This document shows positions 3,911 through 39,311 of a stretch of 40,041 nt of DNA, one piece after another. Source of the DNA: a virus. A program made the position numbers and the translations under genes. The notes beneath the pieces are model-generated. The model worked only from the letters and a program-made list of their open reading frames with translations. It was not told where the DNA came from and did not search any database. The stretch is taken from positions 1 through 40,041 of IMG/VR virus record IMGVR_UViG_3300031857_000476; one strand, 5' to 3'. Numbering within the stretch: position 1 is the stretch's first letter; every line of letters starts with the position of its first letter.

Positions 3911-4219
3911 TTATTTTTCCCATTTCTCTAGGTCAGAACAATCTTTAATTTTGATGCCCATCTTTTTTGCTGCAGCAACTTGTTTTTTACATTGAGCTAA
4001 ATATCTTTCTAATCGACCATTCCATAATTCCATTTCATCTCTAGTAGTATTTATTTTATGTATCAACTCTTTCCAATCTGGAGAGTTTTTTAAAATATTT
4101 ACATCTTTTTTAATTTTTGGAGATAGAAACAGCATAATAAGCGAATCAATAATTCCTTCAGAAATTATTAATTCTTCCGTTACTTCTTGCATTAATTGTT
4201 TTAGTTTACTACGTTTCAT
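3911..4219 (-). CDS. Small protein with capsid-targeting-like N-terminus
   Basis: A 102-residue protein of unknown function. The N-terminus MKRSKLKQLMQEVTEELIIS is an amphipathic helix that ends at I-S-E|G (residue 21), matching the (I/L)xE|(A/G/S) site cut by T4-type prohead proteases. The rest is helical and Lys-rich, ending KKMGIKIKDCSDLEKWEK, with a hydrophobic patch IIDSLIMLFLSPKIKK. It lies between the frameshifted gp26-like unit and the tape measure gene. By position it could instead be a tape measure chaperone or a gp28-like hub protein. It has its own ATATTTAT motif 23 nt upstream. Confidence 0.75.
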   Translation of the reverse strand: MKRSKLKQLMQEVTEELIISEGIIDSLIMLFLSPKIKKDVNILKNSPDWKELIHKINTTRDEMELWNGRLERYLAQCKKQVAAAKKMGIKIKDCSDLEKWEK

Positions 4220-4242
4220 ATAGTAGATAGTATTCGTTTAAT

Positions 4243-4250
4243 ATAAATAT
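4243..4250 (-). promoter_or_regulatory. ATATTTAT late-promoter-like motif
   Basis: Sense-strand GATATTTATATT, 23 nt upstream of the start at 4219. It would drive the 102-residue protein, the tape measure and the gene after it. Confidence 0.5.
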
Positions 4251-4264
4251 CAAACAAAAGAAAA

Positions 4265-4492
4265 TTACCTTGGTCTTATAGCAGGTCGTTGTATTTTAGG
4301 CACGTTTGGAGCTGACATTTTTTTGCTAGCTTTTTTCTGCGCTTCTAAAGTTTCAGAAATTAATCGTATGTAGAATTTACGTAACCAAACTGGAAACGAA
4401 TACACGGCATCCCAAGTGTATCCTCCCTGCCCATGATACACTAAATTGAAAATTTCAGTATGTAATATTGGTCGATAACTAGGATTTAGGCC
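4265..4492 (-). CDS. Frameshifted C-terminal extension of the gp26-like protein (tail assembly chaperone type)
   Basis: A 75-codon open frame runs from GGC at 4492 to the TAA at 4265-4267. It encodes GLNPSYRPILHTEIFNLVYH followed by GQGGYTWDAVYSFPVWLRKF and a Lys-rich tail ending RPAIRPR. It has no ATG or plausible start near its beginning: a TGA closes this frame 10-12 nt upstream, at 4502-4504, and the first ATG is 58 codons in. It therefore seems to be reached only by a shift from the gp26-like frame at a run of seven T (4493-4499 on the complementary strand). The shift needed is +1, or equivalently -2. An upstream ORF plus a shifted tail-assembly extension just before the tape measure is the layout of G/GT-type tail chaperones. 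A one-base assembly error in the homopolymer would give the same picture. Confidence 0.65.
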   Translation of the reverse strand, partial: GLNPSYRPILHTEIFNLVYHGQGGYTWDAVYSFPVWLRKFYIRLISETLEAQKKASKKMSAPNVPKIQRPAIRPR

Positions 4493-5339
4493 AAAAAAAG
4501 CTCACATCCATAGGTACCTCCATTACCTGACTTTCTCCTGTTTGATTAGAAGTAAATACAAACGTCATATCCAAATCAGGAGTTAGACGTTTGATTTCAT
4601 CACGAATAAATCTAGAGTCTTGAGCAAATAATTCATTGTCAACAAAATTGGAAATGTATTGTTGCTCCTTATTACCATCAACTGAAGTTAATAGATATTT
4701 CATTCGTGTAGTCAATTCTTTATCAATACCTGTTAATTTAGTCATTTTTAATTGACCTTTAACAGCATCACGTACTTTTTTATCTAATCCATGAGTCATT
4801 AATTGAAACGTAACTACTCGTTTTGACACTGGAAGAGTTAGCGTGAATTCGTTTTGATGCGGAGTAAGTGAGTCGTAATCGTATGGTTTAGCTTGAATAC
4901 CTGTCAAATCAATAACAACTTTCTGTTTATCGTCTTGAGAAAACGGATCTGTAATTTCAACTTCATAGTCTTTACCGTATCCTAAAATACGAGCTGCAAT
5001 CATAATTGCATTTTTATCTCCTACTAACAATTCGTCGTAATTAATTGGAGACACGATTAACGATTGAAATAAACGATCTAATACAACCCCTTGCTTAATT
5101 AAGCTAGAAGAAGTTAAAATGTCTTCTTCTTTTGCGGTCATATATTTCATTTCAACTTTTCCTGACGCTAAAGCACTGTCTGCACTATAAAGCAACCCTT
5201 TAGATGGTAGCTCAATTATTTCGGTAGGAAATTTTGAATTTTGTGCTTCTTGACGTTGCATGTTTTGAATAGCTAATTGCTTTAATTCTGCGTCAGATAG
5301 CTCGTTTTGATTTGGGTAATTGTTGTTAACTATTGCCAT
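4479..5339 (-). CDS. gp26: T4 gp26-type baseplate hub / tail assembly protein
   Basis: A 286-residue protein with the hallmarks of the T4 base plate protein family (gp26 type): IIELPSKGLLY at about 42-52, then MKYMTAKEEDIL at about 64-75, and a C-terminal MEVPMDVSFFWP. The ELPSKGxxY and MTAxEEDIL blocks are the strongest identifiers. Family knowledge places it in baseplate hub assembly; here it precedes the tape measure. The frame ends at a TAG four codons after the FFWP motif. A 75-codon extension is available in the +1 frame at that spot, so two products may be made. It starts at 5339 and has an ATATTTAT motif 22 nt upstream. Confidence 0.85.
   Translation of the reverse strand: MAIVNNNYPNQNELSDAELKQLAIQNMQRQEAQNSKFPTEIIELPSKGLLYSADSALASGKVEMKYMTAKEEDILTSSSLIKQGVVLDRLFQSLIVSPINYDELLVGDKNAIMIAARILGYGKDYEVEITDPFSQDDKQKVVIDLTGIQAKPYDYDSLTPHQNEFTLTLPVSKRVVTFQLMTHGLDKKVRDAVKGQLKMTKLTGIDKELTTRMKYLLTSVDGNKEQQYISNFVDNELFAQDSRFIRDEIKRLTPDLDMTFVFTSNQTGESQVMEVPMDVSFFWPKS
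4490..4500 (-). other. Putative programmed frameshift site (T7 slippery run)
   Basis: The sense strand reads AGC TTT TTT TGG CCT in the gp26-like frame. A P-site tRNA-Phe can slip one base forward on TTT-T with full re-pairing, then read GGC CTA AAT into the 75-codon extension. The -1 frame instead hits TAA after two codons (TTG GCC), so only +1 or -2 works. The site overlaps the conserved FFWP end of the upstream protein. Confidence 0.55.
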
Positions 5340-5361
5340 AACTATTAGTTTATTATTTTAT

Positions 5362-5369
5362 ATAAATAT
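5362..5369 (-). promoter_or_regulatory. ATATTTAT late-promoter-like motif
   Basis: Sense-strand CATATTTATATAAAA, 22 nt upstream of the gp26-like start at 5339. Confidence 0.5.
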
Positions 5370-5383
5370 GATGCTTGTAAAAT

Positions 5384-5956
5384 TTACAAGTCTCCTGATT
5401 TAGCTGTAAAGTGTATATCCGCTTTATCTTTTAATTTTGCAGAGTCATTAAGCCATTTGCCTAATAGTTCGTCCATATTAGGTAATTCTTCAGACTCAGC
5501 TCCTGGCGATTTAAGTTTAGGCATTATTACTTGATCAATAAACGCTTTTTCTATTTTATCATCAAGCAATTGAGACACTTCCGGAGATAATTTAATTGCT
5601 TCCCAAAATGGTCCTGTCATCTCTTTAAATTCTGATGACTTAGGGTTTTTTAATTCTTTTGCAGTAACTGACTTTCCTAAATCTAATAAAAATGCTCCTA
5701 CGTCTTCTCCGTGATCAGCTACTAAATCTATTATCAATCCAGCAGTGCCTCCAGTAACTAAATTAGCTGCCCATTTAGCTCCTGCCATTCCTACTTTTTT
5801 CAAACTAGACTTTGCAATCTCTCCGGTCGCTCCTTTAGCTCCTCCTGTTTTTTGAGCGTCTATCATAGCGTTTAAAAACGTTTGAACGTCACCCCAAGTT
5901 ACTTTTTCATCAGCTTCTTGTAGTATATTTTCAACTATTGACTTAAGCTTGATCAT
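5384..5956 (-). CDS. Putative internal virion protein with targeting-like N-terminus
   Basis: A 190-residue protein of unknown function. It starts MIKLKSIVENILQEADEK, an amphipathic helix ending at L-Q-E|A (residue 14), a good fit to a T4-type prohead protease site. Residues 55-80 form a Gly/Ala-rich hydrophobic stretch (AANLVTGGTAGLIIDLV). Later comes an acidic helical part, roughly residues 116-145, with KLSPEVSQLLDDKIEKAFID. I believe similar sequences occur in other uncultured T4-like phages, without a known role. The start overlaps the end of the upstream gene by 14 nt, so the two are probably translationally coupled. Confidence 0.75.
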   Translation of the reverse strand: MIKLKSIVENILQEADEKVTWGDVQTFLNAMIDAQKTGGAKGATGEIAKSSLKKVGMAGAKWAANLVTGGTAGLIIDLVADHGEDVGAFLLDLGKSVTAKELKNPKSSEFKEMTGPFWEAIKLSPEVSQLLDDKIEKAFIDQVIMPKLKSPGAESEELPNMDELLGKWLNDSAKLKDKADIHFTAKSGDL

Positions 5957-6287
5957 TAGAATCTACTGTTTTTAATACTCCTTTAATCTTAGATACGATT
6001 TGAGAAAAATCTTTTTCGGATATTCCAAATGCAATAGCAATCGCTCCCATTAATGCAGTACGTTGTGCTGGACTACTTAATGCTTTCGCAGCTCCAGGAT
6101 CTTCAATTAAGTCAATTAATTTAGTACGAATAGAAGCGTCAATAGCTTTAACTGCCATGTTTAAGTTACGTATTACTTGTTGATCTTCAATCTTTTTACC
6201 ATCAGGTCCTACTGGTACTACATCAGCTTCTGTTAAAGCTTTACGAACTTCTTCTCGTATTACTTTCATTAATTGAGCGTTATTCAT
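5943..6287 (-). CDS. Putative internal virion protein with LTE|A targeting-like N-terminus
   Basis: I place the start at 6287 (MNNAQLMKVIREEVRKALTE), giving 114 residues. A longer frame begins at 6476 but would run back through the tail tube gene and the terminator, so it is rejected. The N-terminal helix ends at L-T-E|A (residue 20). The segment EEVRKALTE is identical to that of the 78-residue protein at 6920-7156, although the two bodies are unrelated. The body is helical (residues 38-105), with no known motif. It follows the tube terminator, with an ATATTTAT motif 16 nt upstream. Confidence 0.75.
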   Translation of the reverse strand: MNNAQLMKVIREEVRKALTEADVVPVGPDGKKIEDQQVIRNLNMAVKAIDASIRTKLIDLIEDPGAAKALSSPAQRTALMGAIAIAFGISEKDFSQIVSKIKGVLKTVDSNDQA

Positions 6288-6303
6288 AATAATCAATTTA
6301 TTA

Positions 6304-6311
6304 ATAAATAT
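6304..6311 (-). promoter_or_regulatory. ATATTTAT late-promoter-like motif
   Basis: Sense-strand GATATTTATTAATAAA, 16 nt upstream of the start at 6287. It sits directly behind the tube-gene terminator (6322-6342). Confidence 0.5.
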
Positions 6312-6321
6312 CTTAAACATG

Positions 6322-6342
6322 AAAAATCCCTCCGGAGAGGGA
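6322..6342 (-). terminator. Rho-independent terminator after tail tube gene
   Basis: The sense strand has TCCCTC-TCCG-GAGGGA (6 bp stem, 4 nt UCCG loop closed by C and G) followed by TTTTT. It lies 27 nt after the gp19 stop. Confidence 0.85.
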
Positions 6343-6369
6343 CTTTCGTATATAATATCAAGATGCAGA

Positions 6370-6858
6370 TTAGAACTGCAATATTGCGTAATCGTATTTA
6401 ATTGTAAGCTGAATGTTAATTGCGTCTTCTGTGCTCCAGTCAAAGTCACCAAAGTTAGCGTCTCCAATATAAGCACCTTTCAAAGTCCACTCTTCAACTT
6501 TATCACCAACAGGTCCTAAAGCGTTAAAAGTAATGTCTTTCTTATAAAAGTCAGAGTATCCATTACGACCGGTAACAGACTCGTGAGATAAACGAATCCA
6601 TTCCATTACAGCTTGAGCTGCGGAAGGAACAACTGGATCGTAAAGAGTAATGCTTACGTCATTCCATCTTCCTTTTCCTTTTAATTTACGCTCAACGTTG
6701 ATGTGATCTAACACGACATCGCCAAAAGTAATACCTGGTCGGTTAGCTGCTTTAATTAAGTAAGAAGGAATACCTTCAACGTACATGATGAAACGGTTAG
6801 CCACTTTTGGTTCAAAAGCGGTAAACATTATTTCGGTTGGGTCTAGCAATTCAGCCAT
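6370..6858 (-). CDS. gp19: Tail tube protein (gp19-type)
   Basis: A 162-residue protein, the same size class as T4 gp19 (163 residues). The sequence has features typical of the T4-like tube family: NRFIMYVEGIPSYLIKAANR near residue 21, then WNDVSITLYDP at about 64-74, and SVTGRNGYSDFYKKDI at about 92-107. The C-terminus IQLTIKYDYAILQF is also typical. It polymerises into the inner tube of the contractile tail, inside the sheath. It is a monocistronic unit: an ATATTTAT motif lies 35 nt upstream and a strong terminator follows. A 78-residue tagged gene separates it from the sheath gene. Confidence 0.95.
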   Translation of the reverse strand: MAELLDPTEIMFTAFEPKVANRFIMYVEGIPSYLIKAANRPGITFGDVVLDHINVERKLKGKGRWNDVSITLYDPVVPSAAQAVMEWIRLSHESVTGRNGYSDFYKKDITFNALGPVGDKVEEWTLKGAYIGDANFGDFDWSTEDAINIQLTIKYDYAILQF

Positions 6859-6893
6859 GTTAAATTCGTTTTAAGTTGTTACAATTATTTTAT

Positions 6894-6901
6894 ATAAATA
6901 T
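6894..6901 (-). promoter_or_regulatory. ATATTTAT late-promoter-like motif
   Basis: Sense-strand CGATATTTATATAAAA, 35 nt upstream of the tail tube start. Confidence 0.5.
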
Positions 6902-6919
6902 CGATCTTTTGGAAAAAAA

Positions 6920-7156
6920 TTAACCTATTACACGTAAATCAGATTCATGAAAATAAGCCAAGCCTGATTTTAATTTAACCATGTAAAATTTTCCTGAAGG
7001 AGCTTCGTCTTGCACTTCTCCGGTTTTATTATAATCAGCTAACTCTGGAGAAGACACTTTTACTTTCGCTCCTATTTCTATTTTTCCTTCGGTCAAAGCT
7101 TTGCGTACCTCTTCGTTAACCAACTTTCGTAGGGCAGATATACTCTTGTTATTCAT
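6920..7156 (-). CDS. Targeting-like peptide fused to a small SH3-like domain
   Basis: A 78-residue protein. Residues 1-23 (MNNKSISALRKLVNEEVRKA then LTE) form an amphipathic helix ending at L-T-E|G. Residues 26-78 (IEIGAKVKVSSPELADYNKT ... FHESDLRVIG) read as a small five-strand barrel of SH3/KOW type, with the pattern GxxVxV, GxV, FYMVKL and hESDL. The barrel call is from pattern only. It sits between sheath and tube genes, has its own promoter-like motif, and follows the sheath terminator, so its expression can be set apart from theirs. Confidence 0.8.
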   Translation of the reverse strand: MNNKSISALRKLVNEEVRKALTEGKIEIGAKVKVSSPELADYNKTGEVQDEAPSGKFYMVKLKSGLAYFHESDLRVIG

Positions 7157-7178
7157 TATAGTATCAGTTTATATACTA

Positions 7179-7186
7179 ATAAATAT
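7179..7186 (-). promoter_or_regulatory. ATATTTAT late-promoter-like motif
   Basis: Sense-strand CCATATTTATTAGTATATAA, 22 nt upstream of the start at 7156 and directly behind the sheath terminator. Confidence 0.5.
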
Positions 7187-7202
7187 GGAGGTATATAAAA
7201 AG

Positions 7203-7230
7203 AAAAAGCCCCTGTTTCCAGAGGCTTTTT
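7203..7230 (-). terminator. Rho-independent terminator after tail sheath gene
   Basis: A 12-bp stem (AAAAAGCCTCTG pairing with CAGGGGCTTTTT, one U-G wobble) closed by a GAAA tetraloop on the sense strand, ending in a T run. It begins 20 nt after the sheath stop. Confidence 0.9.
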
Positions 7231-7249
7231 ACTAAATATATTATACCAA

Positions 7250-9703: not shown

Positions 9704-9746
9704 TGAATTAAGATTTAAAGGTTAAACGTTTAGATTAATATTACTA

Positions 9747-9754
9747 ATAAATAT
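9747..9754 (-). promoter_or_regulatory. ATATTTAT late-promoter-like motif
   Basis: Sense-strand CCATATTTATTAGTAATATT, 43 nt upstream of the sheath start. Confidence 0.5.
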
Positions 9755-9776
9755 GGTAATAAAATCTCAAACGGTT

Positions 9777-10031
9777 TTATTTAGACGCTGTAAATTCGCC
9801 GGTTTGAAGATTTAAAGTACCGTCGCCGTATTTAGCGTTTAACTCTTGACCTAAGGCGTTTTCCTGCTCTTTAAGAGCCTGGTAGTTAGTCTCTAAAGTG
9901 TTTTGATAAATTTTTAAATTGAGTTGTTCAATATGAACCTGACCTAATTTAGCTGTAATTTCAGCATACTGTTCTTGTAGCTCTGTAATTTTAGCTAACT
10001 CTTCTTGACTGATTGTTGTAACGTTTTCCAT
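9777..10031 (-). CDS. Small coiled-coil protein
   Basis: An 84-residue protein, largely one coiled coil (residues 8-68: SQEELAKITELQEQYAEITA and on, Gln/Glu/Leu-rich), ending in a short beta-like tail YGDGTLNLQTGEFTAS. I recall similar small proteins in other T4-like marine and freshwater phages, but no function. It lies between the glycine-rich adhesin genes and the sheath gene. No ATATTTAT motif is upstream; the 89 nt before it is only very AT-rich. Confidence 0.75.
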   Translation of the reverse strand: MENVTTISQEELAKITELQEQYAEITAKLGQVHIEQLNLKIYQNTLETNYQALKEQENALGQELNAKYGDGTLNLQTGEFTASK

Positions 10032-10120: not shown

Positions 10121-11089
10121 TTACCAACAAACTAAAATAACTAATCCATCACCTCCGTTACCTCCTCTGCCGCCAGTAGTTCCGGCTCCACCACCACCAC
10201 CACCACAACCAATTCCACCATTACCACCATTACCACCAACACCAGTATTATTTCCTGCTCCTCCAGCTCCTGGAAGTGATAAAAATGTTGGTTCAAAAAG
10301 TGTTATACCATCTTCTCCATTCGCTCCTGCAGATGCCCCTCCTAATAAATTTCGACTCCATATAGAGTTCACAGATGTTGTAGGAGCAAATACATTACCA
10401 CCATTAAAAGTTATACCACTTGATACTCCTCCACCTCCGGCTCCTCCTTGCGGTCTTCCTAGAAACGGAGCGTTATTACCTCCAGCTGCAAATCCACCGT
10501 TTTGTCCAGCTCCAGTTGATGCCGGAGTCTGTGAAAAATTACTAAATCCTATTATTCCAGGTTGTGTTGTTGTTGTTGATATTGTTGCAGCTGCTCCTCC
10601 ATTCCCTCCTGCAAGAGCTGTACCGGTTCTACCAGAAGTAGTACCAGTTTGAGTACTTGCCGGATATGCATAGTAAACTCGACTTGTATTTACTGTTGTT
10701 TGACCTACTTCTGGATACCACAATCCAGATGCTAAGGTTGGAAGACCTCCTGCAGTAGAAGCAGCTCCACCCAACCCACCTCTACCAACAGTTACAGCTA
10801 GTGTATCTGGCACTACATAAGCTGGTTGTATAAATTGTATCACTGGGCCAGCATCCCCTCCTCCACCCCCACCACCGGCAGTTCCTGCTCCAAAACTAAA
10901 TCCTCCTCCTCCTCCGGTACCAGGTGATATTAGTATTCCATATACAAAATTTATTCCTTGTGGTTTGTTCCATACTGTCATTCCTCTCCATGGAGGTACG
11001 CCGCCACCGCCTACACTTGTATTTTCAACCGTAAACACATATGTTTTAGCATTTCCTTTTGCTATTGGTAAATTCAAACTTCCTATCAT
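10121..11089 (-). CDS. Glycine-rich adhesin-like protein, copy 3
   Basis: A 322-residue glycine-rich protein, third of three tandem paralogues. Residues 1-60 are the non-repetitive head (MIGSLNLPIAKGNAKTYVFT, then WRGMTVWNKPQGINFVYGIL). From about residue 58 on, glycine dominates with runs such as GTAGGGGGGGD and GCGGGGGGAG. It ends GGDGLVILVCW, matching the C-termini of the other two copies. Glycine-rich domains of this sort occur in phage tail-tip and receptor-binding proteins; T-even gp38 adhesins also use glycine-rich motifs. The role as receptor binder is an inference from this and from its place after the long fibre genes. It starts 4 nt after the previous stop. Confidence 0.8.
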   Translation of the reverse strand: MIGSLNLPIAKGNAKTYVFTVENTSVGGGGVPPWRGMTVWNKPQGINFVYGILISPGTGGGGGFSFGAGTAGGGGGGGDAGPVIQFIQPAYVVPDTLAVTVGRGGLGGAASTAGGLPTLASGLWYPEVGQTTVNTSRVYYAYPASTQTGTTSGRTGTALAGGNGGAAATISTTTTQPGIIGFSNFSQTPASTGAGQNGGFAAGGNNAPFLGRPQGGAGGGGVSSGITFNGGNVFAPTTSVNSIWSRNLLGGASAGANGEDGITLFEPTFLSLPGAGGAGNNTGVGGNGGNGGIGCGGGGGGAGTTGGRGGNGGDGLVILVCW

Positions 11090-11093
11090 AACT

Positions 11094-11999
11094 TTATCCG
11101 CATGTTATTATTACTAATCCATCTCCTCCACGACCACCCGCTCCTCCTAATCCAGGACCTACACTTCCACCACCACCTCCAGAACCAAATCCTCCCCAGC
11201 CTCCAGTACTTCCACTTATAGTGGTTGATGAACTTGCCCCTGTTCCTCCAGCTGAAAGAAATTGTATTAGATTTTCAATCTTTGCGCCAGCACTACCAGC
11301 TGGTAAACTAGCTGCTCCTTGTAGAGCATAATCACCGGCCATAAGAATAGATGACCCTGCGCCTGCAACATTAGCTGCCGAATTTCCACTTCCTCCTCCA
11401 CCTCCTGTAATTCTATAAACTGCTGTTACAACAGTAGCACCATTTTGTCCACCGCTTTGACCATTTTGACCAGCTAAGTAGTTTCGTAAACCTACTTGTG
11501 ATATAGGCATAGATGTGGCAGTGGCAGCTACTGACCCCCCACCTCCAATTGCGCCTGCTGTTCCAGCTGGCACCGTGCCGGCATTACCAGGACCAGCTGA
11601 GCATAAAGCATATCCTGCTGATTGTGCTGGATAAAAAGTAACAAATGTAGAATTAAATCCAGAAAATCCTGCATTAGCTGTACTAGCAACGTTGGAGGAT
11701 GTTCCTCCTGTTCCACCAATACCAATATTAACATACAAGGTATCGGGAACTAAATAAGCTGGTAAAAATACAGAACTCAATGCACCGCCACCACCGCCAG
11801 ATCCACCTCTAGCAGCAACGCCCGCAGTATAAGGAAATGCTCCCGATCCACCCGCTCCTGCTCCTATACAAATAATATGTACAAAACTTATACCAGGAGG
11901 TTTTGACCAAGGCTGAAATCCGTTTAGTGGTCGATTTTGAGATGTATAAACCCAAAAACGTTGATCTTGTTGTGAAGGTAAGTGTTGAAATCCGTCCAT
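11094..11999 (-). CDS. Glycine-rich adhesin-like protein, copy 2
   Basis: A 301-residue paralogue. The head is MDGFQHLPSQQDQRFWVYTS followed by FQPWSKPPGISFVHIICIGA. The body is Gly/Ala/Ser-rich with GSGGGGGAL and GGFGSGGGGGS blocks. It ends GGRGGDGLVIITCG. Hydrophobic strand-like pieces (for example AYLVPDTLYVNIGIGGTGG) recur at equivalent places in all three copies. The start is 1 nt after the upstream stop. Virion tip or fibre adhesin is the likely role, by analogy only. Confidence 0.8.
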   Translation of the reverse strand: MDGFQHLPSQQDQRFWVYTSQNRPLNGFQPWSKPPGISFVHIICIGAGAGGSGAFPYTAGVAARGGSGGGGGALSSVFLPAYLVPDTLYVNIGIGGTGGTSSNVASTANAGFSGFNSTFVTFYPAQSAGYALCSAGPGNAGTVPAGTAGAIGGGGSVAATATSMPISQVGLRNYLAGQNGQSGGQNGATVVTAVYRITGGGGGSGNSAANVAGAGSSILMAGDYALQGAASLPAGSAGAKIENLIQFLSAGGTGASSSTTISGSTGGWGGFGSGGGGGSVGPGLGGAGGRGGDGLVIITCG

Positions 12000-12000
12000 A

Positions 12001-12945
12001 TTAACTTATTGATATCATTATTAAACCATCACCGCCTTTGCCACCGGTACCGCCAATGTTGCCTGCTGCTCCTCCTCCACCACCGCCACAGCCATAAGCT
12101 CCATCGCCTCCATTTCCACCATTATTAGCTCCTATAGCTCCGCCACCTCCACCTGCCCCGCCAGTAGCTATAAAAGGTCTCCATGAAAAATATCCACTAG
12201 ATCCGTTACCACCAGCTGCGCCTACACCAGCAGCCCCACCATTAATAGCAGTTGTTACATAGGCATTTATACTAGCCATGGTTACACTACCACCAGTACT
12301 ACCGTTAATAGCAGCTGCTGTCTTACCAGCACCTCCTGCTCCACCAGTTAATAATCCAGTATATGTAACAGAGCTTCCATTACCCAATCCACCAGCTGAT
12401 GCCCCTAGTTGTGCTACTGTATTACCTACTATACCTAACCATTTTAAATTTAATGAATCAGCTATTGTTATAGCTGTGCCAGCTGTTCCTGACGTAGAAC
12501 CACCGGCTCCGCCTCCTGGAGCTGTATTACTTGATTGTATTACCGCTGAACCAGGGTTAATTTCAGGATATAAGCAAACATACGAAATAGTACCACTTTG
12601 GCCAGATTGTCCTGCTACCGCTTGGTTATTACTTCCCGTACCAGGAGCTCCTCCATACCCTACTTGTAAATATAAAGTTTTAGGAAGTAAAATAGCAGGT
12701 ATAGAAACTGATACCATACCACCGGGAGCTCCGCCGCCACCTCCACTTCTACCAGCTGCTTGTGCTGTTCCACCACAACCTCCTCCTCCTCCAGCTCCCC
12801 CGCCTATTACAGTGAAGTGCAAGAAAGCAGCGTGTTCAGGTACGCTCCAAGCTTGAAAGCTTCCAGAGGTACTGCCAGATGCATTTGCATAAAATACAAA
12901 AGTGTTTTGATCTGATTTACTAGGTAAATGGCCGAATCCATTCAT
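12001..12945 (-). CDS. Glycine-rich adhesin-like protein, copy 1
   Basis: A 314-residue paralogue. The head is MNGFGHLPSKSDQNTFVFYA, then FQAWSVPEHAAFLHFTVIGG. The rest is glycine-rich, with a strand-like piece AILLPKTLYLQVGYGGAPG equivalent to the one in copy 2, and the end GGKGGDGLIMISIS. It starts 15 nt after the preceding gene. A proline-rich frame on the opposite strand is only the complement of its GGN codons. Confidence 0.8.
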   Translation of the reverse strand: MNGFGHLPSKSDQNTFVFYANASGSTSGSFQAWSVPEHAAFLHFTVIGGGAGGGGGCGGTAQAAGRSGGGGGAPGGMVSVSIPAILLPKTLYLQVGYGGAPGTGSNNQAVAGQSGQSGTISYVCLYPEINPGSAVIQSSNTAPGGGAGGSTSGTAGTAITIADSLNLKWLGIVGNTVAQLGASAGGLGNGSSVTYTGLLTGGAGGAGKTAAAINGSTGGSVTMASINAYVTTAINGGAAGVGAAGGNGSSGYFSWRPFIATGGAGGGGGAIGANNGGNGGDGAYGCGGGGGGAAGNIGGTGGKGGDGLIMISIS

Positions 12946-33042: not shown

Positions 33043-33291
33043 TTAAGAGTGATTTTCTGTCATATACTGATGTACGCTATGCACGTAGTCAGACGCTAGC
33101 GTTATATATCCTGATACCCAACCTGGCAACTCTTGCCCTTCTTGTATCATTTGATATAATTCTGCTCCTAGCTTTACCATATCACGCAACTCACCACGTG
33201 CCATTTTAGCTTCGTGATCAGGATGTTGCATGTTAGGCAATTCTTCTTGAATTACTTCTCTAATAATGCTTCTTAACTGTTCAGTTTTCAT
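33043..33291 (-). CDS. Small conserved-type protein with targeting-like N-terminus
   Basis: I start it at 33291 (MKTEQLRSIIREVIQEELPN), giving 82 residues. A longer frame from 33327 would add 12 residues and run through the promoter-like motif. The N-terminal helix ends with IQE|E, a weaker cleavage-like site than in the other tagged genes. The body reads MARGELRDMVKLGAELYQMI, then ELPGWVSGYITLASDYVHSV. I recall this GWVxxYITLASDYxxSV pattern in many cyanophage-like contigs, function unknown. It is the first gene after the gp23 terminator. Confidence 0.75.
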   Translation of the reverse strand: MKTEQLRSIIREVIQEELPNMQHPDHEAKMARGELRDMVKLGAELYQMIQEGQELPGWVSGYITLASDYVHSVHQYMTENHS

Positions 33292-33306: not shown

Positions 33307-33314
33307 ATAAATAT
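33307..33314 (-). promoter_or_regulatory. ATATTTAT late-promoter-like motif
   Basis: Sense-strand CGATATTTATATTAAAGG, 15 nt upstream of the start at 33291 and directly behind the gp23 terminator. Confidence 0.5.
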
Positions 33315-33338
33315 CGTAACAATCCATTAATTCAGTAG

Positions 33339-33362
33339 AAAAGGGGCTTTAACACCCCTTTT
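33339..33362 (-). terminator. Rho-independent terminator after major capsid gene
   Basis: A perfect 8-bp stem on the sense strand, AAAAGGGG-TGTTAAAG-CCCCTTTT, beginning 28 nt after the gp23 stop. Confidence 0.9.
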
Positions 33363-33390
33363 CATTTATTAAGAAATAAGATTTAGACTA

Positions 33391-35088
33391 TTACACTAAA
33401 TTCAAACCGTGAACTTTAATAGTTCCGTAGAATTCAGGACGAACCATCTTCTTAGCATAACGAGTCATTACACCTTTACGTGGAGTAAAGTTGGTTGGAT
33501 CGTATACTAATGGAGTCATGATCAATGGAATATATGGAGCATATACAGCACCTGTTTCCAAGAACTGGCTACCACGATATCCTAATAAGATCAAGTTCTC
33601 AGTCATATATGGGTTTTTGTATACAGTAAAGCGGTTATTTAAAGCACCAACTTTCTGAACACCCATAGCGAACTGCATTTTATCACCGTTAGTGTCAGCA
33701 GCGTATCCTGGGATAGACTCAAGGATAGTTGCAACGTCTGGAGAACAAACTAAGAAGTTAGCACCACCACGCATTGTCTTTTGGTGAATTTTATTAGATA
33801 CTTTCTGGATCTTAGTACCTAAAGTTTGGAACCAAGTACCTTGATTATAAGCAGAAGCGTACTGACTAGCAGTTAATGAAAACGTGTCGGTAGATGCTAC
33901 ATACTCATATCCAATTTGAGCAGACCACTTATCAGTTGTCACAGCATTTTGAATCAACATATCTAAAATTTCTAAGTCGATCTCTTGAGAGATATACTCA
34001 GACAACATAGAAGTTAATTCAGCTTCAGCGTCAATTGAGTGATAAGCGTTCAAGTCTTGAGCAAATTCTGGACTCCAGATTGCTTTCAACTTACGAGTCT
34101 TAGCAACGATAGCATCGCTACGTAACTCAACGTTGATTTCTGGGATATTGATATCTGTTCCGTTTCCGACAGTATCTTCAAAATCACCACGACCGCTAGC
34201 AGCTGGCTGTTTGTGATACTGTACAGCTAATGGAGTAGCAGCGGTAGCAGCTGTAATAGATCCAGACACAATAAATGTAATAGATGTTCCAGAAACTTTA
34301 GTAAATTGTGGGAAGTAAGCTTCAATTCTACCAGAAGTTGATGAAGTTACTGCATAAGCACGAACTCCATTATAATCAGGATTACTTAAAGCAGAACCTG
34401 TGATAGTAATTTTCTTAAAGTGACCTGCGGCGATTGAAGCTGAATAAGCACTAGTAAATGTACTATCGTAGTTAAACTCATCAAAATCAGCGTCAGCTGC
34501 CATATTCAATGCAGTACTAACAATAGCGTGAGTATCTGATGGAGCAGTTTGAGTAATGTTTGAACCAGTAGCAGATAATGACTTAATAGCGTCGTTAATT
34601 GAATAACCGAAACGACCGGCACCATAAAGACCTTGAGAAACGTCTCCGGTAGTGTTAGTAATACCGAATACAGAATCATTCTGATATCCAGTTACGGTTG
34701 GGTTTTCAGATGTGTTGCTAGTAGTGAATCCTGGCTGAGCTGTATTGTATTTGAAATCCATATAGAATACAAGACCTGATGGTAAATTCATAGGCTGTAC
34801 ACTAACGAAATCTTTAGCAGCAATCTCAGCGAATACACGACGTACTAATGGAAGAGCTACACCAGACCATTCTTCTGCGTTACCAGAAGTACCAGTTGAG
34901 TTAGCTTCAGAAACTAATTGCTTAGCTTGGTTTTCAAGCATGATAGCCATACCGTGCTTCTCATACTCGTTGGATAGACCTTCTAACAAACCTGTCTTAT
35001 TCCATTTTGAAACAAGACCTTTAGTCTCTTCCATTTGGCGACGGATTGCAGAATTACTATCAGTTAAAATGTTTGATAATTTTGACAT
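33391..35088 (-). CDS. gp23: Major capsid protein (gp23-type)
   Basis: A 565-residue protein that aligns by eye with T4 gp23 (521 residues). LVRRVFAEIAAKDFVSVQPM at 81-100 corresponds to MVRRAIPNLIAFDICGVQPM. LKAIWSPEFAQDLNAYHSID matches LKAAYSIELAQDLRAVHGMD, with DAEAELTSMLSEYISQEI after it. The C-terminal PYIPLIMTPLVYDPTNFTPR corresponds to the gp23 segment ending in RGSDPKNFQP. A likely maturation cut is V-S-E|A at residue 61, close to T4's E65|A66. Residues 150-310 hold a Ser/Thr/Ala-rich part with no clear T4 match, probably an insertion domain. It forms the capsid hexamers; no gp24 vertex gene is nearby. The leader is A-rich, without a Shine-Dalgarno sequence. Confidence 0.97.
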   Translation of the reverse strand: MSKLSNILTDSNSAIRRQMEETKGLVSKWNKTGLLEGLSNEYEKHGMAIMLENQAKQLVSEANSTGTSGNAEEWSGVALPLVRRVFAEIAAKDFVSVQPMNLPSGLVFYMDFKYNTAQPGFTTSNTSENPTVTGYQNDSVFGITNTTGDVSQGLYGAGRFGYSINDAIKSLSATGSNITQTAPSDTHAIVSTALNMAADADFDEFNYDSTFTSAYSASIAAGHFKKITITGSALSNPDYNGVRAYAVTSSTSGRIEAYFPQFTKVSGTSITFIVSGSITAATAATPLAVQYHKQPAASGRGDFEDTVGNGTDINIPEINVELRSDAIVAKTRKLKAIWSPEFAQDLNAYHSIDAEAELTSMLSEYISQEIDLEILDMLIQNAVTTDKWSAQIGYEYVASTDTFSLTASQYASAYNQGTWFQTLGTKIQKVSNKIHQKTMRGGANFLVCSPDVATILESIPGYAADTNGDKMQFAMGVQKVGALNNRFTVYKNPYMTENLILLGYRGSQFLETGAVYAPYIPLIMTPLVYDPTNFTPRKGVMTRYAKKMVRPEFYGTIKVHGLNLV

Positions 35089-35116
35089 TCTGTTTGTTTT
35101 TTTAAAGTTAATTTAA

Positions 35117-36013
35117 TTATTTTAATCCCGCTAATTTTTTAAATCTAGCAGCTAAATCAGCACCTTCTGCAATCACTTGCTTCTGCGGTTTGGTAGAAGC
35201 AATAGGCTTCGAAGCAAATGATTCTTTAATAGCTTTCTTAGGAGCTTTAAATGATTCAGCTAGAGTGGAAAACACTAACTTCACTTCACGCAAATTGTGA
35301 GCTCTGTCAAAGTTTTCAATTACTTTCATTTTCTGACCTTCGTTTAGAGCGAAATTACGGAAAAGCTTATTAGAGTAAAGCAACTTAGCGTTCAATAAAT
35401 TTACTTCATTGATTTTGCTTTTCAAGAAACGAATAACGTTGTAAGCTTCTTCTAATTCAGCTTCTTTAGCTTCTTCTTCCTCTTCAGTCATTTCTTCTTC
35501 TTCACCTTCCTCTTCTTCGCGAAGTGAACGAATAATTTCTTCAATGTTGACTTCCTCGTCCTCGTCTTCTTCACCTTCAGCCATTGCAGCTTCAGCATCT
35601 TCGTCGGATACAGGCTCTTCTTCTTCAGTCATTTCATCTTCAGAATGCTCTTCGCCTTCTAATTCGCGAATAATTTCTTCTAAATCTAAATCGTCTTCCT
35701 CTTCCATTTCAGGTTCTTCTTCAGGCATTTCTTCATCGTCGCCTTCAGTTACTTCCTCTTCGTCAGAGTACATTTCGTCATCGCCTTCTGCTACTGGCTC
35801 GTCTTCCATCTCCATATCTTCACCTTCCATTGGCATCTCTTCATCAGCTGGCATTTCTTCGTCTTCTTCAGACATTTCTTCAGCTAATTTAGCAGACAAC
35901 ATAGATTGAAGTCTTGGAGCGAAAGCTTCTTCTAAAGCAAGTTTAGCATTGGCCAAAGCAGTTTCACGTACAGCTTTTGCGTCCGCGATTGCTTCTTTCA
36001 ATAGATCTTTCAT
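35117..36013 (-). CDS. gp22: Prohead scaffold core protein (gp22-type)
   Basis: A 298-residue protein directly upstream of gp23, as in T4. Residues 1-45 are helical and Ala-rich (MKDLLKEAIADAKAVRETAL), with L-E-E|A near residue 29. Residues 45-185 are extremely acidic, with long Glu/Asp tracts punctuated by Met and Pro. The C-terminal 110 residues are helical (NVIRFLKSKINEVNLLNAKL) and carry further candidate protease sites: L-A-E|S and I-A-E|G. In T4 the core protein is chopped by the prohead protease to acidic internal peptides. AAAAGGAC lies 1 nt before the ATG, a rare Shine-Dalgarno-like sequence here. A serine-rich frame on the other strand is a shadow of the Glu tract. Confidence 0.9.
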   Translation of the reverse strand: MKDLLKEAIADAKAVRETALANAKLALEEAFAPRLQSMLSAKLAEEMSEEDEEMPADEEMPMEGEDMEMEDEPVAEGDDEMYSDEEEVTEGDDEEMPEEEPEMEEEDDLDLEEIIRELEGEEHSEDEMTEEEEPVSDEDAEAAMAEGEEDEDEEVNIEEIIRSLREEEEGEEEEMTEEEEEAKEAELEEAYNVIRFLKSKINEVNLLNAKLLYSNKLFRNFALNEGQKMKVIENFDRAHNLREVKLVFSTLAESFKAPKKAIKESFASKPIASTKPQKQVIAEGADLAARFKKLAGLK

Positions 36014-36122
36014 AGTCCTTTTATTAAATAAGTTAATTGGAAATAAGATTATTAGAAATCTTAATGGATAAGTTTAATTATCGCCTCTTACATAGAATAG
36101 TAAGACATTGTGCGTTACGAGT

Positions 36123-36130
36123 ATAAATAT
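36123..36130 (-). promoter_or_regulatory. ATATTTAT late-promoter-like motif with long leader
   Basis: Sense-strand CATATTTATACTCG, 109 nt upstream of gp22 and immediately behind a hairpin. The leader contains a small hairpin (TCTTAC/GTAAGA, 36086-36105) and a six-codon ORF, MSYYSM (36088-36108). Confidence 0.5.
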
Positions 36131-36156
36131 GGGCGTGAATGAGAAAACACGCCCAT
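36129..36156 (-). terminator. Hairpin, probable terminator of head cluster
   Basis: A perfect 9-bp stem (ATGGGCGTG / CACGCCCAT) with a 10-nt loop, starting 17 nt after the stop at 36173. No T run follows, only A/T-rich sequence, so it could instead be an mRNA end or processing structure. Confidence 0.65.
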
Positions 36157-36172
36157 TTGTATAAATTTTATT

Positions 36173-36895
36173 TTAAGCTATTTTTAACTTAGCTTCGTTT
36201 TCTTTAATATGCGCAACTATTTCTTTAGTTAATTTAACTATCTCAACGCCTTTACCGATTAGGCCTGAAATAGCAAATACTAACAATACTCCTGACGTTA
36301 TAGACGGGAACACATATACAGCTACAGACAATAATGCTAGAGTTATTAATAACACTCCAGACACGCCAGCAATTTTTTGTGCAGCTGCGCTAGCTCCTAA
36401 TTTACTAGCTATCCATGCAAACGCTTTTTCCATTACTTTTGCAGGAAATCCAGTAACACTTTTAATAAGTGAAAGTGTTTTTTCTAATTTAGCTTTTAAT
36501 TTATTTTCATCAATATCTTTAAACCCAGCTTTTTGTAATGCTTCAGATAGAACATGTAAAAAAGCTGCATTGCCTAGTACATCAGCTATCAAGTGAATTG
36601 ATCCTAATATGCCCGCAGCTTCAGATAAATATGATCTAGATTCTTTAATTTCAGTTTTAATAGCATCTATATCAGATACGTCAATACTATTAACTTTTCC
36701 TTCCGCATCAATTAATGCAGATAATAGAGCTGCTTGAACTTCTTCGTCAGTTACATCTTCTCCATCTTTTTTAAGCTCATTGCCTAATGAAAATAATTGT
36801 TTTTGTATAGACGCTGCATCTCCTGAAATAGATTCAGTTAACATTTTAATATAAGCACGTTGTACAACAGTTTGAGCTATTACAGATAGTTTCAT
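36173..36895 (-). CDS. Putative internal head protein with transmembrane segments
   Basis: A 240-residue protein. The N-terminus MKLSVIAQTVVQRAYIKMLT ends at L-T-E|S (residue 21), a candidate targeting and cleavage site. Further candidate sites are L-S-E|A at two places. Residues 120-165 are amphipathic helix. Two hydrophobic segments near residues 178-197 (VSGVLLITLALLSVAVYVFP) and 201-220 (SGVLLVFAISGLIGKGVEIV) look like a membrane hairpin. The rest is Lys/Glu-rich helix. A membrane-active protein packed in the head could help DNA entry, but this is an inference. It is the last gene of the head cluster. Confidence 0.75.
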   Translation of the reverse strand: MKLSVIAQTVVQRAYIKMLTESISGDAASIQKQLFSLGNELKKDGEDVTDEEVQAALLSALIDAEGKVNSIDVSDIDAIKTEIKESRSYLSEAAGILGSIHLIADVLGNAAFLHVLSEALQKAGFKDIDENKLKAKLEKTLSLIKSVTGFPAKVMEKAFAWIASKLGASAAAQKIAGVSGVLLITLALLSVAVYVFPSITSGVLLVFAISGLIGKGVEIVKLTKEIVAHIKENEAKLKIA

Positions 36896-36903
36896 TTGAT
36901 GAA

Positions 36904-37638
36904 TTATTTAGAATCTTTTACGCCTTTGTCTTTACCTGGTTCTTCTTTAGCTGTATAGTTTTTATCTACCCATTTAAAGAATTTTTTCTTTTCACCTGGT
37001 TCTTCTAAGTCTGAAGGTTCGTTAATTTTAAACTTCTTCATAGCCTTAGTAAAAAACTTCTGATATTCAGTTTCATTAGCTTCGTTTACCATACCATTAA
37101 TATCGTAATACTTACCTAACGTTTCTCCAATGTCTTCGTATGCAGACTCTAAACGTTGTTGCAAAGTAGTCATTTCATGAGACGTTTTTTCAAAAATCTT
37201 AAACGCTTCACCTAAATGTTTCATGTGACGATTAACAGTAGCTCTGTCAAACCAATCTTCAGTTTCTGAAAGTGTTAAATGATTTGCAGCTTCAATTAAT
37301 TCGCCTAAATACTGCGCAGTTTCTTTTAAAGAGTGTGATCTGTAAATTGAAGGAGCGTGTTCTGCAAAACGATACACAGCTTCCATAAAAGCTTTTTTCT
37401 GCTCTGTAGTCATTCCCTCCATTGGGTTTTCACTTTCGTGTAATTTAAGTAGCGACGCTAATTTAATAGATTTTGGTTTCATATTTTCGTTTTTTAACTT
37501 TTTTGTTTCGTGCATATGCAACGCAGCTAAATATTTACGAAGTGCTTCTTTAGTGCCTTTAGTAGCACCGACTCTTTTACCAGAGTCTTTTTTATACACT
37601 ACGTATTTACCACCTTCTTTTCTAGCTGTGTAAGGCAT
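36904..37638 (-). CDS. Two-module virion-type protein with internal targeting-like segment
   Basis: A 244-residue protein. Residues 1-44 are a small basic module (MPYTARKEGGKYVVYKKDSG, then KRVGATKGTKEALRKYLAAL) of a type often seen alone in T4-like phages. A second Met at residue 53 starts MKPKSIKLASLLKLHESENP, which has the same form as the tagged N-termini (L-H-E|S). The C-terminal helical part has YQKFFTKAMKKFKINEPSDL and KKKFFKWVDKNYTAKEE. The protein may be a fusion, or be cleaved after residue 66 or so. An internal start at residue 53 is possible. Function unknown. Confidence 0.75.
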   Translation of the reverse strand: MPYTARKEGGKYVVYKKDSGKRVGATKGTKEALRKYLAALHMHETKKLKNENMKPKSIKLASLLKLHESENPMEGMTTEQKKAFMEAVYRFAEHAPSIYRSHSLKETAQYLGELIEAANHLTLSETEDWFDRATVNRHMKHLGEAFKIFEKTSHEMTTLQQRLESAYEDIGETLGKYYDINGMVNEANETEYQKFFTKAMKKFKINEPSDLEEPGEKKKFFKWVDKNYTAKEEPGKDKGVKDSK

Positions 37639-37639
37639 A

Positions 37640-38014
37640 TTAGTAAATTCTTACTGTATACTTTCCATTATCAAAAAATACCACTCCGATGTCCTTTCCA
37701 TTAGATCCACCGCCTTTGTGTTTCCAATTAGCGGAAATTGCAAATGCATATCCTCCAATAGAGTTTGGAACGTTTCTGCAAGCCACGTCTAATGTCATAG
37801 CTTCAAATATAGCTAACATCAATGGGCTACGAAGATCTTTAGTCACGTCCATTGTGTAATACAATACATCTGGCTTTGACTTAATCAACGTTAACTGAGC
37901 GTTAATGCCAGTTTTAATTTTAAGAGCTTTCATAGCTCCTTTAATTATTTGCTCTGAAGGCTCAACAACGTTTTCGTTTAAAGTTGATTTTTTAAGTATA
38001 CTAGTTAATTTCAT
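37640..38014 (-). CDS. Small protein with targeting-like N-terminus
   Basis: A 124-residue protein. The N-terminus MKLTSILKKSTLNENVVEPS has L-N-E|N at residue 14, a weaker fit than A/G/S at the cut. The body (residues 20-124) is alternating alpha and beta: MKALKIKTGINAQLTLIKSK, then LMLAIFEAMTLDVACRNVPN, and a final DIGVVFFDNGKYTVRIY. I do not recognise a family. The start overlaps the upstream stop by four bases (ATGA), indicating coupling. Confidence 0.75.
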   Translation of the reverse strand: MKLTSILKKSTLNENVVEPSEQIIKGAMKALKIKTGINAQLTLIKSKPDVLYYTMDVTKDLRSPLMLAIFEAMTLDVACRNVPNSIGGYAFAISANWKHKGGGSNGKDIGVVFFDNGKYTVRIY

Positions 38015-38217
38015 TTTGGGCTGTATTTTGATGGAATGCTATCTAAATTTAATTTAGAAGTGTCTTTTGCAGCTGCAATAGCGCCTGCAGAATTGTAGCG
38101 AGCTGGTATTGTGTCAACGTTTAATTTTGACGTGTCTTTAGCAAACTGAGTCGTTCCATTGTAAACTATTCCTCTAGAGTTTAAGGAACTAGCTTTATAG
38201 CGATCTTCTAAATTCAT
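38011..38217 (-). CDS. Tiny protein made of three SxLNxD repeats
   Basis: A 68-residue protein that is almost wholly repeat: SSLNSRGIVYNGTTQFAKDT (10-29), SKLNVDTIPARYNSAGAIAA (30-49), and SKLNLDSIPSKYSPK (54-68). The same motif, including a (T/A)KDT linker, occurs in the gene that starts at 951. The protein sits between gp21 and the tagged head genes and overlaps the next gene by four bases. No function is known to me. Confidence 0.75.
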   Translation of the reverse strand: MNLEDRYKASSLNSRGIVYNGTTQFAKDTSKLNVDTIPARYNSAGAIAAAKDTSKLNLDSIPSKYSPK

Positions 38218-38223
38218 AATGTA

Positions 38224-38826
38224 TTATTTTATATCAGTTAATATATCAGTTATAATACGACTTACTCGATCGTATTTTGAATTGCTAGCTAATTTTGGAT
38301 CTACTGACTCGTGCATAGGCTTTAAAAACGCTCCATGAGTTGATGGATTTGACACAAAGTCAAATGCAACTAACTCAAAGTCGTCTTGCACCTCAACAGT
38401 ATTTTCACCTAACTGCTTAACAGAGCCTAATCCACGAGAACTAATACCTAATTTAATTCCACACTTGAAAAGCTCTTTTAAAATATTTCCTGAAGGAGTT
38501 GATAACACTTCTACAGTGCCAACTAAATCGTCTCCATTCCAATGCATCTCTACAATATTGTGTGACACGTTGTTTAAGTTAACAATAGAAGAATCTGGAT
38601 GATCTAATTCTCCTAACGCTCTGCGCTCTCGTATATTTACATCGCTGTATTTTTTCGCTTCGCGCATTAAAATTTCTCTAGGATATACTCGGCCATTTTG
38701 ATTTTTAGCTTCGGCTCTTTGAAGTACTCCTTTAACTAATAAACGTCCGTTATTTTTCTCCATTGACTCTGCAATCATATCTGGAGTAGCGGAAAATACT
38801 ATAGTGTCTACTAATAATTGTTTCAT
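38224..38826 (-). CDS. gp21: Prohead protease (gp21-type)
   Basis: A 200-residue serine protease of the T4 prohead protease family (S77 type). It shows VLQRAEAKNQNGRVYPREIL at about 34-53, ALGELDHPDSS at about 69-79 with the probable catalytic His, and KLGISSRGLGSVKQLG at about 124-139 with the probable catalytic Ser. Then comes DFELVAFDFVSNPSTHGAFL. T4 gp21 is 212 residues. A candidate self-cleavage site I-A-E|S lies at residue 20. Its position before gp22 and gp23 is the T4 order. It would cut scaffold, capsid protein and tagged internal proteins at (L/I)xE sites. The start overlaps the upstream gene by four bases. Confidence 0.93.
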   Translation of the reverse strand: MKQLLVDTIVFSATPDMIAESMEKNNGRLLVKGVLQRAEAKNQNGRVYPREILMREAKKYSDVNIRERRALGELDHPDSSIVNLNNVSHNIVEMHWNGDDLVGTVEVLSTPSGNILKELFKCGIKLGISSRGLGSVKQLGENTVEVQDDFELVAFDFVSNPSTHGAFLKPMHESVDPKLASNSKYDRVSRIITDILTDIK

Positions 38827-39311
38827 GATGCTAATTCTTTAATTTGTTGTGAAAGACGTAATAATCGTTCATTAATTTTGTTTAAATTTTCTCGAGACGA
38901 TTTCCAGTACATGGAATTGTCTACATTAGACTCTTGCTTTAATCGTACGTTGTTGCTAACTATTTTTTCCATAAAACGCAAACCACGATTAATCTCTGCA
39001 ATAGAATGATTAATTTTTGCCTTTGGAGATCCTGAAGGATCTTTCTTATATTCATGATAAGCACTTTCTAGAAACATTTCAGAAGACAGTTTCTTAAAAG
39101 TTGACTCTTTCACATTCTTTTTTACTTTCTTTGCTTTTTTATAACCTAGCATTTCAATAGTATCGTTGCCTAACTCACCAAAAGCGTTAGGAGTTAAATA
39201 CGGGCCGGCTCCTGCTGAAGTAGACATTTCGTCTAATTCTTCCTCTTGAGGTTCAGAATCCGCAGACTCGTTTAATAAACGATATTTACGTAATGAATTT
39301 AAGTATGACAT
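38823..39311 (-). CDS. Head-cluster protein with targeting-like N-terminus
   Basis: A 162-residue protein. MSYLNSLRKYRLLNESADSE has L-N-E|S at residue 15. Next comes an acidic stretch, then DEMSTSAGAGPYLTPNAFGE, a Gly/Ser/Pro motif I have seen in many T4-like phage proteins without a known role. Residues 65-162 are Lys-rich helix with SIAEINRGLRFMEKIVSNNV and NKINERLLRLSQQIKEL. The position just before the protease gene is that of T4 genes 67/68, which make small core proteins, so a minor core role is possible. Confidence 0.75.
   Translation of the reverse strand: MSYLNSLRKYRLLNESADSEPQEEELDEMSTSAGAGPYLTPNAFGELGNDTIEMLGYKKAKKVKKNVKESTFKKLSSEMFLESAYHEYKKDPSGSPKAKINHSIAEINRGLRFMEKIVSNNVRLKQESNVDNSMYWKSSRENLNKINERLLRLSQQIKELAS

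Follow-up and report, generated by a model that had tools for sequence, protein, structure and literature searches.

The stretch of DNA analysed here, positions 1 to 40,041 of the IMG/VR virus record IMGVR_UViG_3300031857_000476 (called the window in the following), is a 40,041-bp fragment of a myovirus of the T4 superfamily. Genes for an S77 protease, a gp23-type capsid protein, a sheath and a tube protein were matched in it, together with a baseplate-hub match. By identity of the capsid protein, its closest named relatives are Microcystis phage Mel-JY01 (58.9 %) and Flavobacterium phage immuto (58.5 %), and Rhodothermus phage RM378 is more distant (35.6 %). Nine proteins of the window carry a short leader that ends at an (L/I)xE site. 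The original prediction, made from the sequence letters, had proposed that these leaders are a modular tag with which many unrelated proteins are loaded into the phage head, and which is then removed. Direct reading confirmed all nine leaders and sites at the places given, including the four in the tail cluster (genes 4219, 5956, 6287 and 7156). The results described below make it very probable that the leaders are capsid-targeting peptides of the T4 kind, with sequences unlike those of T4 and with far more cargo. Genes are named by their start position, the bar marks the expected cut, and the join is the boundary between leader and mature part.

4157..4219, minus strand: leader of 21 amino acids (aa), ..IISE|G, of the 102-aa protein at 3911-4219; LxE at most three residues from the join in 4/4 orthologues
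5915..5956, minus strand: leader of 14 aa, ..ILQE|A, of the 190-aa protein at 5384-5956; LxE kept in 4/5 orthologues, control 0/45 windows
6228..6287, minus strand: leader of 20 aa, ..ALTE|A, of the 114-aa protein at 5943-6287; profile match; LxE exactly at the join in 7/7 orthologues
7088..7156, minus strand: leader of 23 aa, ..ALTE|G, of the 78-aa protein at 6920-7156; profile match; LxE at most three residues from the join in 2/2 orthologues
33244..33291, minus strand: leader of 16 aa, ..VIQE|E, of the 82-aa protein at 33043-33291, directly after the capsid gene; profile match (as L082, a near-identical copy of the window)
36833..36895, minus strand: leader of 21 aa, ..MLTE|S, of the 240-aa protein at 36173-36895; LxE exactly at the join in 8/8 orthologues
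37435..37482, minus strand: internal leader, residues 53-68, M..LKLHE|S, behind the N-terminal domain of the 244-aa protein at 36904-37638
37973..38014, minus strand: leader of 14 aa, ..TLNE|N, of the 124-aa protein at 37640-38014; LxE at most three residues from the join in 20/22 orthologues
39267..39311, minus strand: leader of 15 aa, ..LLNE|S, of the 162-aa protein at 38823-39311; profile match

Leaders and sites in the window and its relatives

The conservation of the site was assessed by requiring LxE within three residues of the join, with V, M and F also allowed at its first position. Orthologue rows were left out when their identity to the window exceeded 95 % or when their alignment began only after residue 8. 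LxE was kept at the join for six of the nine genes (4219, 5956, 6287, 7156, 36895 and 38014), compared with 0-22 % in control windows of the same proteins. For 38014, LxE stands exactly at the join in 13 of the 20 positive orthologues (control 4 %). The leaders themselves are alike among the orthologues of 5956 and differ among those of 4219, and the mature part of 7156 is 87 % identical to its counterpart in L226, where it follows a different leader of the same type. In 37638, the domain N-terminal to the internal leader is conserved, and a methionine precedes the leader in the orthologues shown. One orthologue of this gene (L011, about 11260-11300) has an in-frame stop in the leader region (MKLNK*IKLADLLKE), due to an error, decay or recoding.

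A profile built from the nine leaders was searched against 2,442 open reading frames (ORFs) of the window, its relatives and two cultured phages. It gave 35 matches with at least 6 bits, 27 of them beginning in the first 40 residues, compared with none in the reversed proteins. Nine of the 35 lie in the window or L082 and 26 are independent. After iteration, 79 matches reached at least 8 bits, 73 of them in the first 45 residues, and the reversed proteins gave 1 and 0. This search of related genomes came out in favour of the original prediction, and the likeness of the leaders as a set exceeds both chance and what coiled-coil composition would give, although 33291 and 39311 individually could be chance. 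From the window alone only a modest claim can be made; the reality of the leaders is settled because the related genomes decide.

Two simpler measures were rejected as evidence for the leaders. The first is the bare count of the site, since the motif is common in the background; among 1,094 head-locus ORFs, [LIVM]xE was found in 4.3 % at residues 16-20 and in 1.8-2.9 % per residue from residue 26 onward. The second is pair similarity within the window, where N-terminal scores were hardly above the controls: 10 pairs scored at least 30 for residues 1-30, compared with 8 for residues 31-60, 15 for residues 61-90 and 1-9 for shuffled leaders. Mel-JY01 likewise showed no clear excess (115 N-terminal pairs with at least 30, compared with 118 and 110), and its top pairs look paralogous. 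In immuto, 22 N-terminal pairs scored at least 40, compared with 3 and 1, some of them being paralogues or other N-termini.

Leader families and their cargo

The leaders in the window comprise the KLIREEVKKALNE type and shorter types such as MIKLKSIVENILQE, and the Flavobacterium-phage relatives carry the type FDLKKFLVENKLTxNSRxLxE. Two degenerate DNA patterns were scanned over IMG/VR independently of protease and capsid genes, with 104 stretches found for class A (..IREEV.K.L.E) and at least 120 for class B (KKFLVENKLT). Unless stated otherwise, place and cluster counts refer to 80 of the 104 class A loci and 80 of the at least 120 class B loci. An ATG directly upstream makes 74/91 class A and 95/99 class B places N-terminal, where near-identical contigs are included (the 91 class A places represent 72 distinct 40-aa stretches, the 99 class B places 83). 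A further 24 class A and 40 class B loci gave 23/29 and 47/48 N-terminal places. In class B, conservation ends at LxE, with E in 70/95 and no residue above 21/95 in the following column. LxE follows ENKLT within 17 residues in 94/95 places, compared with 67/253 control windows.

After removal of the 17 class A and 4 class B places that were not N-terminal, 160 cargos of at least 40 aa (of 169) were clustered and fell into 87 clusters at E<=1e-3. Adding profile matches and cultured phages gave 126 clusters from 266 items, 24 of which were hand-picked from Mel-JY01 and immuto and include some that may not be leaders; the 87 clusters from pattern matches only are the safer number. The parts after the site are unrelated, as had been claimed, with 160 cargos in 87 clusters and a reversed control near zero. 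At least 87 clusters over many phages also exceed the at least ten internal proteins (Ips) of T-even relatives, as anticipated. Among the 126 cargo representatives, 11 Pfam and 20 PHROGs families were matched, with one member each, and at least 95/126 had no Pfam or PHROGs match at E<=0.001. The domains named were S-adenosylmethionine (SAM) lyase, nucleotidase, cytidylyltransferase and kinase; two rounds on 10 selected proteins each named some cargos. In a collection of bacterial and archaeal genomes, the class B pattern was found in one stretch, located on a contig with its own S77 protease.

Replacement and unusual placement of leaders

The same mature protein can stand behind different leaders. 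In relatives, seven leader sequences, which belong to three or more kinds (IREEV, KQLLKEFAP and a longer one in L170), precede the mature part of 6287, and all seven end with LxE at an identical position. In the family of 38014 (E|..EPSEQ), the leaders are of two unlike kinds. One cargo occurs in both L224 and L311 (score 391), preceded in one by a class A and in the other by a class B leader (tag score 18); the two sequences become alike two residues after the Glu. A second mixed-leader cluster (L194, L304) was not used, with only part of the cargo being common. PF23780 SAM-lyase proteins carry five different leaders in Mel-JY01, a 293-kb viral contig and Synechococcus phage S-CREM2, where the contig has three PF23780 copies, two of which do not exceed the cut-off of the family. 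Each of the five leaders ends at a Glu, followed by (S/N/A)SL(S/N)R. Judging from these sequences, leaders pass from gene to gene, and one and the same gene can receive a new leader, with the Glu as the point of joining.

Leaders were also observed in other places. A 530-aa protein (G007 36342-37931, from L445) consists of a class B-like leader, a cargo, LQE, a second class B leader and a second cargo, and may resemble a small polyprotein, unless the inner methionine is the start. Class B leaders also lie within long proteins in L282, L284, L289 and L330. A SAM-lyase-family protein of Mel-JY01 (L163 2405-3688; Mel-JY01 52405-53691) has the leader-like N-terminus MQFKQYILGE. The Mel-JY01 SAM lyase also carries a class A-like leader at its C-terminus, three residues from the end, which suggests processing at both ends. 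A further leader-like N-terminus, MKKQILSEQF(K/R)RMQ(F/K)LAGIITE, is found in two otherwise weakly alike immuto proteins (L166 25061-25453 and L168 11675-12136), and in G064 (108719-109006) a stretch that resembles it comes after a class A leader.

Protease, capsid protein and neighbouring genes

The head genes of the window that bear on the proposed processing are as follows.

38224..38826, minus strand: head maturation protease, Peptidase_S77 (gp21 type); PF03420 E 2.7e-31, phrog_207 E 5.9e-55
33391..35088, minus strand: major capsid protein, gp23 type; phrog_138 E 1.5e-75, PF07068 E 4.3e-82
34906..34908, minus strand: Glu61 codon of the capsid protein, expected maturation cut [VI]xE|A; alignment of 91 rows
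35117..36013, minus strand: acidic protein directly upstream of the capsid gene; sequence and gene order

The match to PF03420 bears out the gp21-type protease that had been recognised from the sequence. In the capsid protein, E61 is invariant in 91/91 rows and preceded two residues earlier by V or I in 91/91. Its position is near that of the T4 gp23 cut (the T4 propeptide has 65 residues), and by analogy with T4 the capsid protein would be cut at E61. The acidic protein, for which the PHROGs search gave no family match, is probably a scaffold or core protein, a name suggested by its sequence and gene order.

S77 genes were searched in records that were chosen by length from the listed loci. 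In class B, S77 was found in 19/38 records, many of which are fragments, and in 13/13 of those with at least 40 kb; in one of these, G027, the leader is internal to a protein. In class A, it was found in 9/39 records, many again being fragments, and in 4/4 of those with at least 100 kb.

Around these genes, several further features were observed. A 68-aa protein with a repeated DTSKLN(V/L)DSIP motif lies between the protease and the 38014 gene (38011-38217); the repeats are more numerous in its relatives in L002 and L089. The ORF at 39604-39963 is incomplete, as its frame runs on upstream beyond the end of the record. Its relatives are longer, with a conserved NE (LNE in most of those shown) directly before that start. 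Three neighbouring glycine-rich paralogues lie at 10121-12945. Neither the nine leader-bearing proteins nor the 39604-39963 ORF obtained a secure PHROGs or Pfam assignment (best E 0.0019, for part of 37638). The predicted structure of the mature 38014 protein is confident (predicted local distance difference test, pLDDT, 90.9). It had no PDB match at E<=0.001 (best Z 7.3) and one uncharacterised viral match (E 1.2e-4). The 36895 model (pLDDT 76, with five models that disagree) had no match at E<=0.001 in a viral structure library.

Comparison with virion proteomes

In the IPIII leader of T4, residues 4 and 7 matter for targeting and residues 8 and 10 for processing, according to the passages on this protein in PMC9026906. 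A T4-derived pattern was defined with an aromatic residue at 4, F at 7, a hydrophobic residue at 8 and E at 10, counted from the start codon of ORFs with at least 60 aa. As this pattern was fixed after the S-CREM2 N-termini were known, the comparison with this phage is not blind. The 174,876-bp S-CREM2 genome has exactly four matches: the SAM hydrolase gp6, the kinase gp14, gp136 and the cytidylyltransferase gp154. All four are among the 52 virion proteins detected in Table 3 of PMC10665884, which reports peptide numbers and coverage rather than the ends of peptides, and in a random draw of four from the 219 numbered ORFs the chance that all are detected is about 0.3 %. The near matches gp13 (MKDLHSFLTE) and the Cas9-annotated gp12 (..FASFMAE) were likewise detected; gp12 (L461 7704-10313) had no Pfam match at E<=0.01. 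The terms leader, targeting, internal proteins, cleavage and propeptide gave no hits in the searchable text of PMC10665884, and the putative link of these virion enzymes to T4-type leaders is drawn in the present analysis from their N-terminal sequences.

Anchored to the start, the T4 capsid-targeting sequence (CTS) pattern was found in neither the window nor Mel-JY01, once each in immuto and S-SZBM1 and four times in S-CREM2. The leaders in the window have no T4 sequence match and would therefore function like the T4 CTS but belong to a different sequence class. The cytidylyltransferase detected in S-SZBM1 virions begins with MRFRQFIIE. One published virion proteome is thus in agreement with capsid targeting, and another is not.

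Discussion

The modular leader, the conserved Glu at the join, the diversity of the cargo, the replacement of leaders, the protease and the capsid cut site are supported directly. In the proposed mechanism, the leader, a short and presumably amphipathic helix, would attach its protein to the prohead core while the head is assembled. Cleavage by the S77 protease after the Glu of (L/I/V)xE would then release the mature protein in the head; both steps are proposed from T4 experiments together with the comparative evidence. The cargo would remain in the head and be ejected with the DNA, for which T4 and P1 offer precedents. The original prediction was accordingly upheld for a modular tag that ends at a gp21-type site by the profile, join and replacement tests, while loading into the head and removal in the phage of the window would follow by inference.

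Several observations weigh against capsid targeting or limit its reach. The bare motif [LIVMF]xE ends at residues 12-26 in 14/34 window genes, which include the sheath and a 978-aa protein, compared with 153/747 (20 %) later windows. Profile counts are modest: near an ATG, seven large genomes have 2-11 leaders each and the window has 4, with none in the 50 kb of RM378 that were profiled. Three genes of the window gave a poor join test. For 37638, LxE lies at most three residues from the join in 65/73 orthologues, but the control is 55 %. For 33291, it does so in 4/9 compared with a control of 23 %; the orthologues shown mostly have hydrophobic-x-E-E within the same stretch. For 39311, only 3/34 orthologues have LxE near the join (control 26 %). 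This join is unaligned because the stretch after the leader varies, and several of the orthologues shown begin with a similar leader. Among class A records of at least 40 kb with an N-terminal leader, S77 is present in 6/14 and missing in 8 (40-73 kb). These eight and five others without an ATG-supported N-terminal match make up 13 class A records without S77, of which 0/13 have a gp23 gene (positive control 13/14) and 4 have sheath genes. Because the gp23 gene is missing too, they are probably fragments without the head module. In a small control, S77 was found in 2/12 searched random viral contigs (15 found). The co-occurrence of leaders and S77 may be inseparable from shared ancestry, as all carriers may be T4-type phages. 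In S-CREM2, 20/26 detected non-structural or unknown proteins (first 150 kb) do not have even the loose pattern, and therefore other routes into the virion exist; the loose pattern also occurs in one structural and one undetected protein. In S-SZBM1, the count is 0/1, with the pattern match ORF191 not among the 30 detected proteins and the near match ORF192 also undetected. The search found no virion proteomics for the phage of the window.

The alternative that survives best is that the leader-bearing proteins of the window are conserved structural, core or ejection proteins that are trimmed by the protease, with the leader acting as an assembly propeptide as in T4 gp22, gp67 and gp24. We consider this a serious possibility, somewhat short of an even chance. 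The genes 37638, 39311, 38014, 36895 and 33291 adjoin the protease and capsid genes and have 73, 34, 22, 8 and 9 distinct orthologues in loci around the protease or capsid gene, and the 36895 protein is predicted, at low confidence, to be mostly helical. By contrast, the wider cargo set has SAM-lyase, nucleotidase and cytidylyltransferase domains rather than structural ones. The tail-cluster genes have only 2-7 orthologues, although this count is biased by fetching loci around head genes and proves little. Cargo and structural proteins would moreover share one leader mechanism. The five genes near the head genes may encode conserved core or ejection proteins instead of cargo that varies. To set them apart in this way from the tail-cluster genes, as accessory cargo, is a guess, since the loci were mostly collected around head genes, which leaves the tail cluster under-sampled.

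It is improbable that the leader is instead a docking or localisation signal for the tail, a membrane or a chaperone, with a conserved Glu that has no proteolytic role. The four leader-bearing genes in the tail cluster would fit such a signal, as would the fact that cleavage is deduced. Against it, the cut site expected in the capsid protein is invariant and of like form, leaders and the S77 protease go together in the longer records, and in S-CREM2 presence in the virion accords with T4-like leaders. Least probable is a likeness due to coiled-coil or helix composition with LxE by chance: the bare motif is common and pair scores within the window hardly exceed controls, but reversed proteins of the same composition gave 0-1 matches compared with 35-79, which refutes it for the set as a whole, and the Glu stays at one fixed position while the surrounding leader is replaced.

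Capsid targeting by exchangeable leaders has its closest parallel in T4. There, propeptides of 10-19 residues target proteins to the core and gp21 cuts after L/I-x-E, and Alt is processed at the C-terminus too, so at both ends, as described in the sections of PMC9026906 on processing. According to the same paper, Asp in place of this Glu prevents processing in T4 and leaves targeting intact. As in the window, IPI, IPII, IPIII and Alt are unrelated proteins with a short N-terminal leader and an L/I-x-E site, next to a gp21-type protease and a gp23-type capsid protein; that unrelated T4 internal proteins share a leader is already known. The C-terminal processing of Alt recalls the C-terminal leader of the Mel-JY01 SAM lyase. 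In contrast to T4, the leaders in the window have 14-23 residues and another sequence, and also occur internally. The number of at least ten Ips in T-even phages, of which Ip1-3 were shown to block type IV restriction enzymes, is taken from the relevant passages of PMC12373910. In phage P1, the first 30 residues of DarB suffice to send a reporter to the capsid, which is likewise N-terminal targeting, but in the sections of PMC9024508 on DarB one cargo is so directed and no family of exchangeable leaders is described. In the giant phage SPN3US, the prohead protease gp245 trims head-packaged and ejection proteins as in the model proposed here. In the portions of the SPN3US literature available, however, several propeptides exceed 100 residues, and gp45, with 20 residues, is the only N-terminally processed head protein with a propeptide of T4 length. 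The SAM hydrolase, kinase and cytidylyltransferase detected by mass spectrometry in S-CREM2 virions, according to the proteome table of PMC10665884, are the same kinds of cargo as those found here. Full-text searches of an open-access library, not all with this aim, brought up no description of leaders in distant relatives, of more than one leader family or of the exchange of leaders; the term capsid targeting sequence occurs in 15 papers of that library.

Proteins that are injected with phage DNA disarm restriction or reprogram the host, but are little known beyond a few models and have usually been found singly. A leader that can be read from sequence gives testable predictions for many uncultured phages. 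It may also explain why metabolic enzymes recur in cyanophage virion proteomes, which, in the passages of PMC10665884 and PMC9602691 that deal with them, the authors could not fully separate from co-purified protein. In addition, the leaders offer a natural set for work on protein delivery. Beyond the window, it appears reasonably likely that the T4 superfamily shares a code in which several unrelated leader families, each ending in the S77 site of its lineage, stand on about 100 or more kinds of proteins and work N-terminally, between two fused cargos and C-terminally. If this holds, the set of proteins that such a phage injects could be read from sequence alone.

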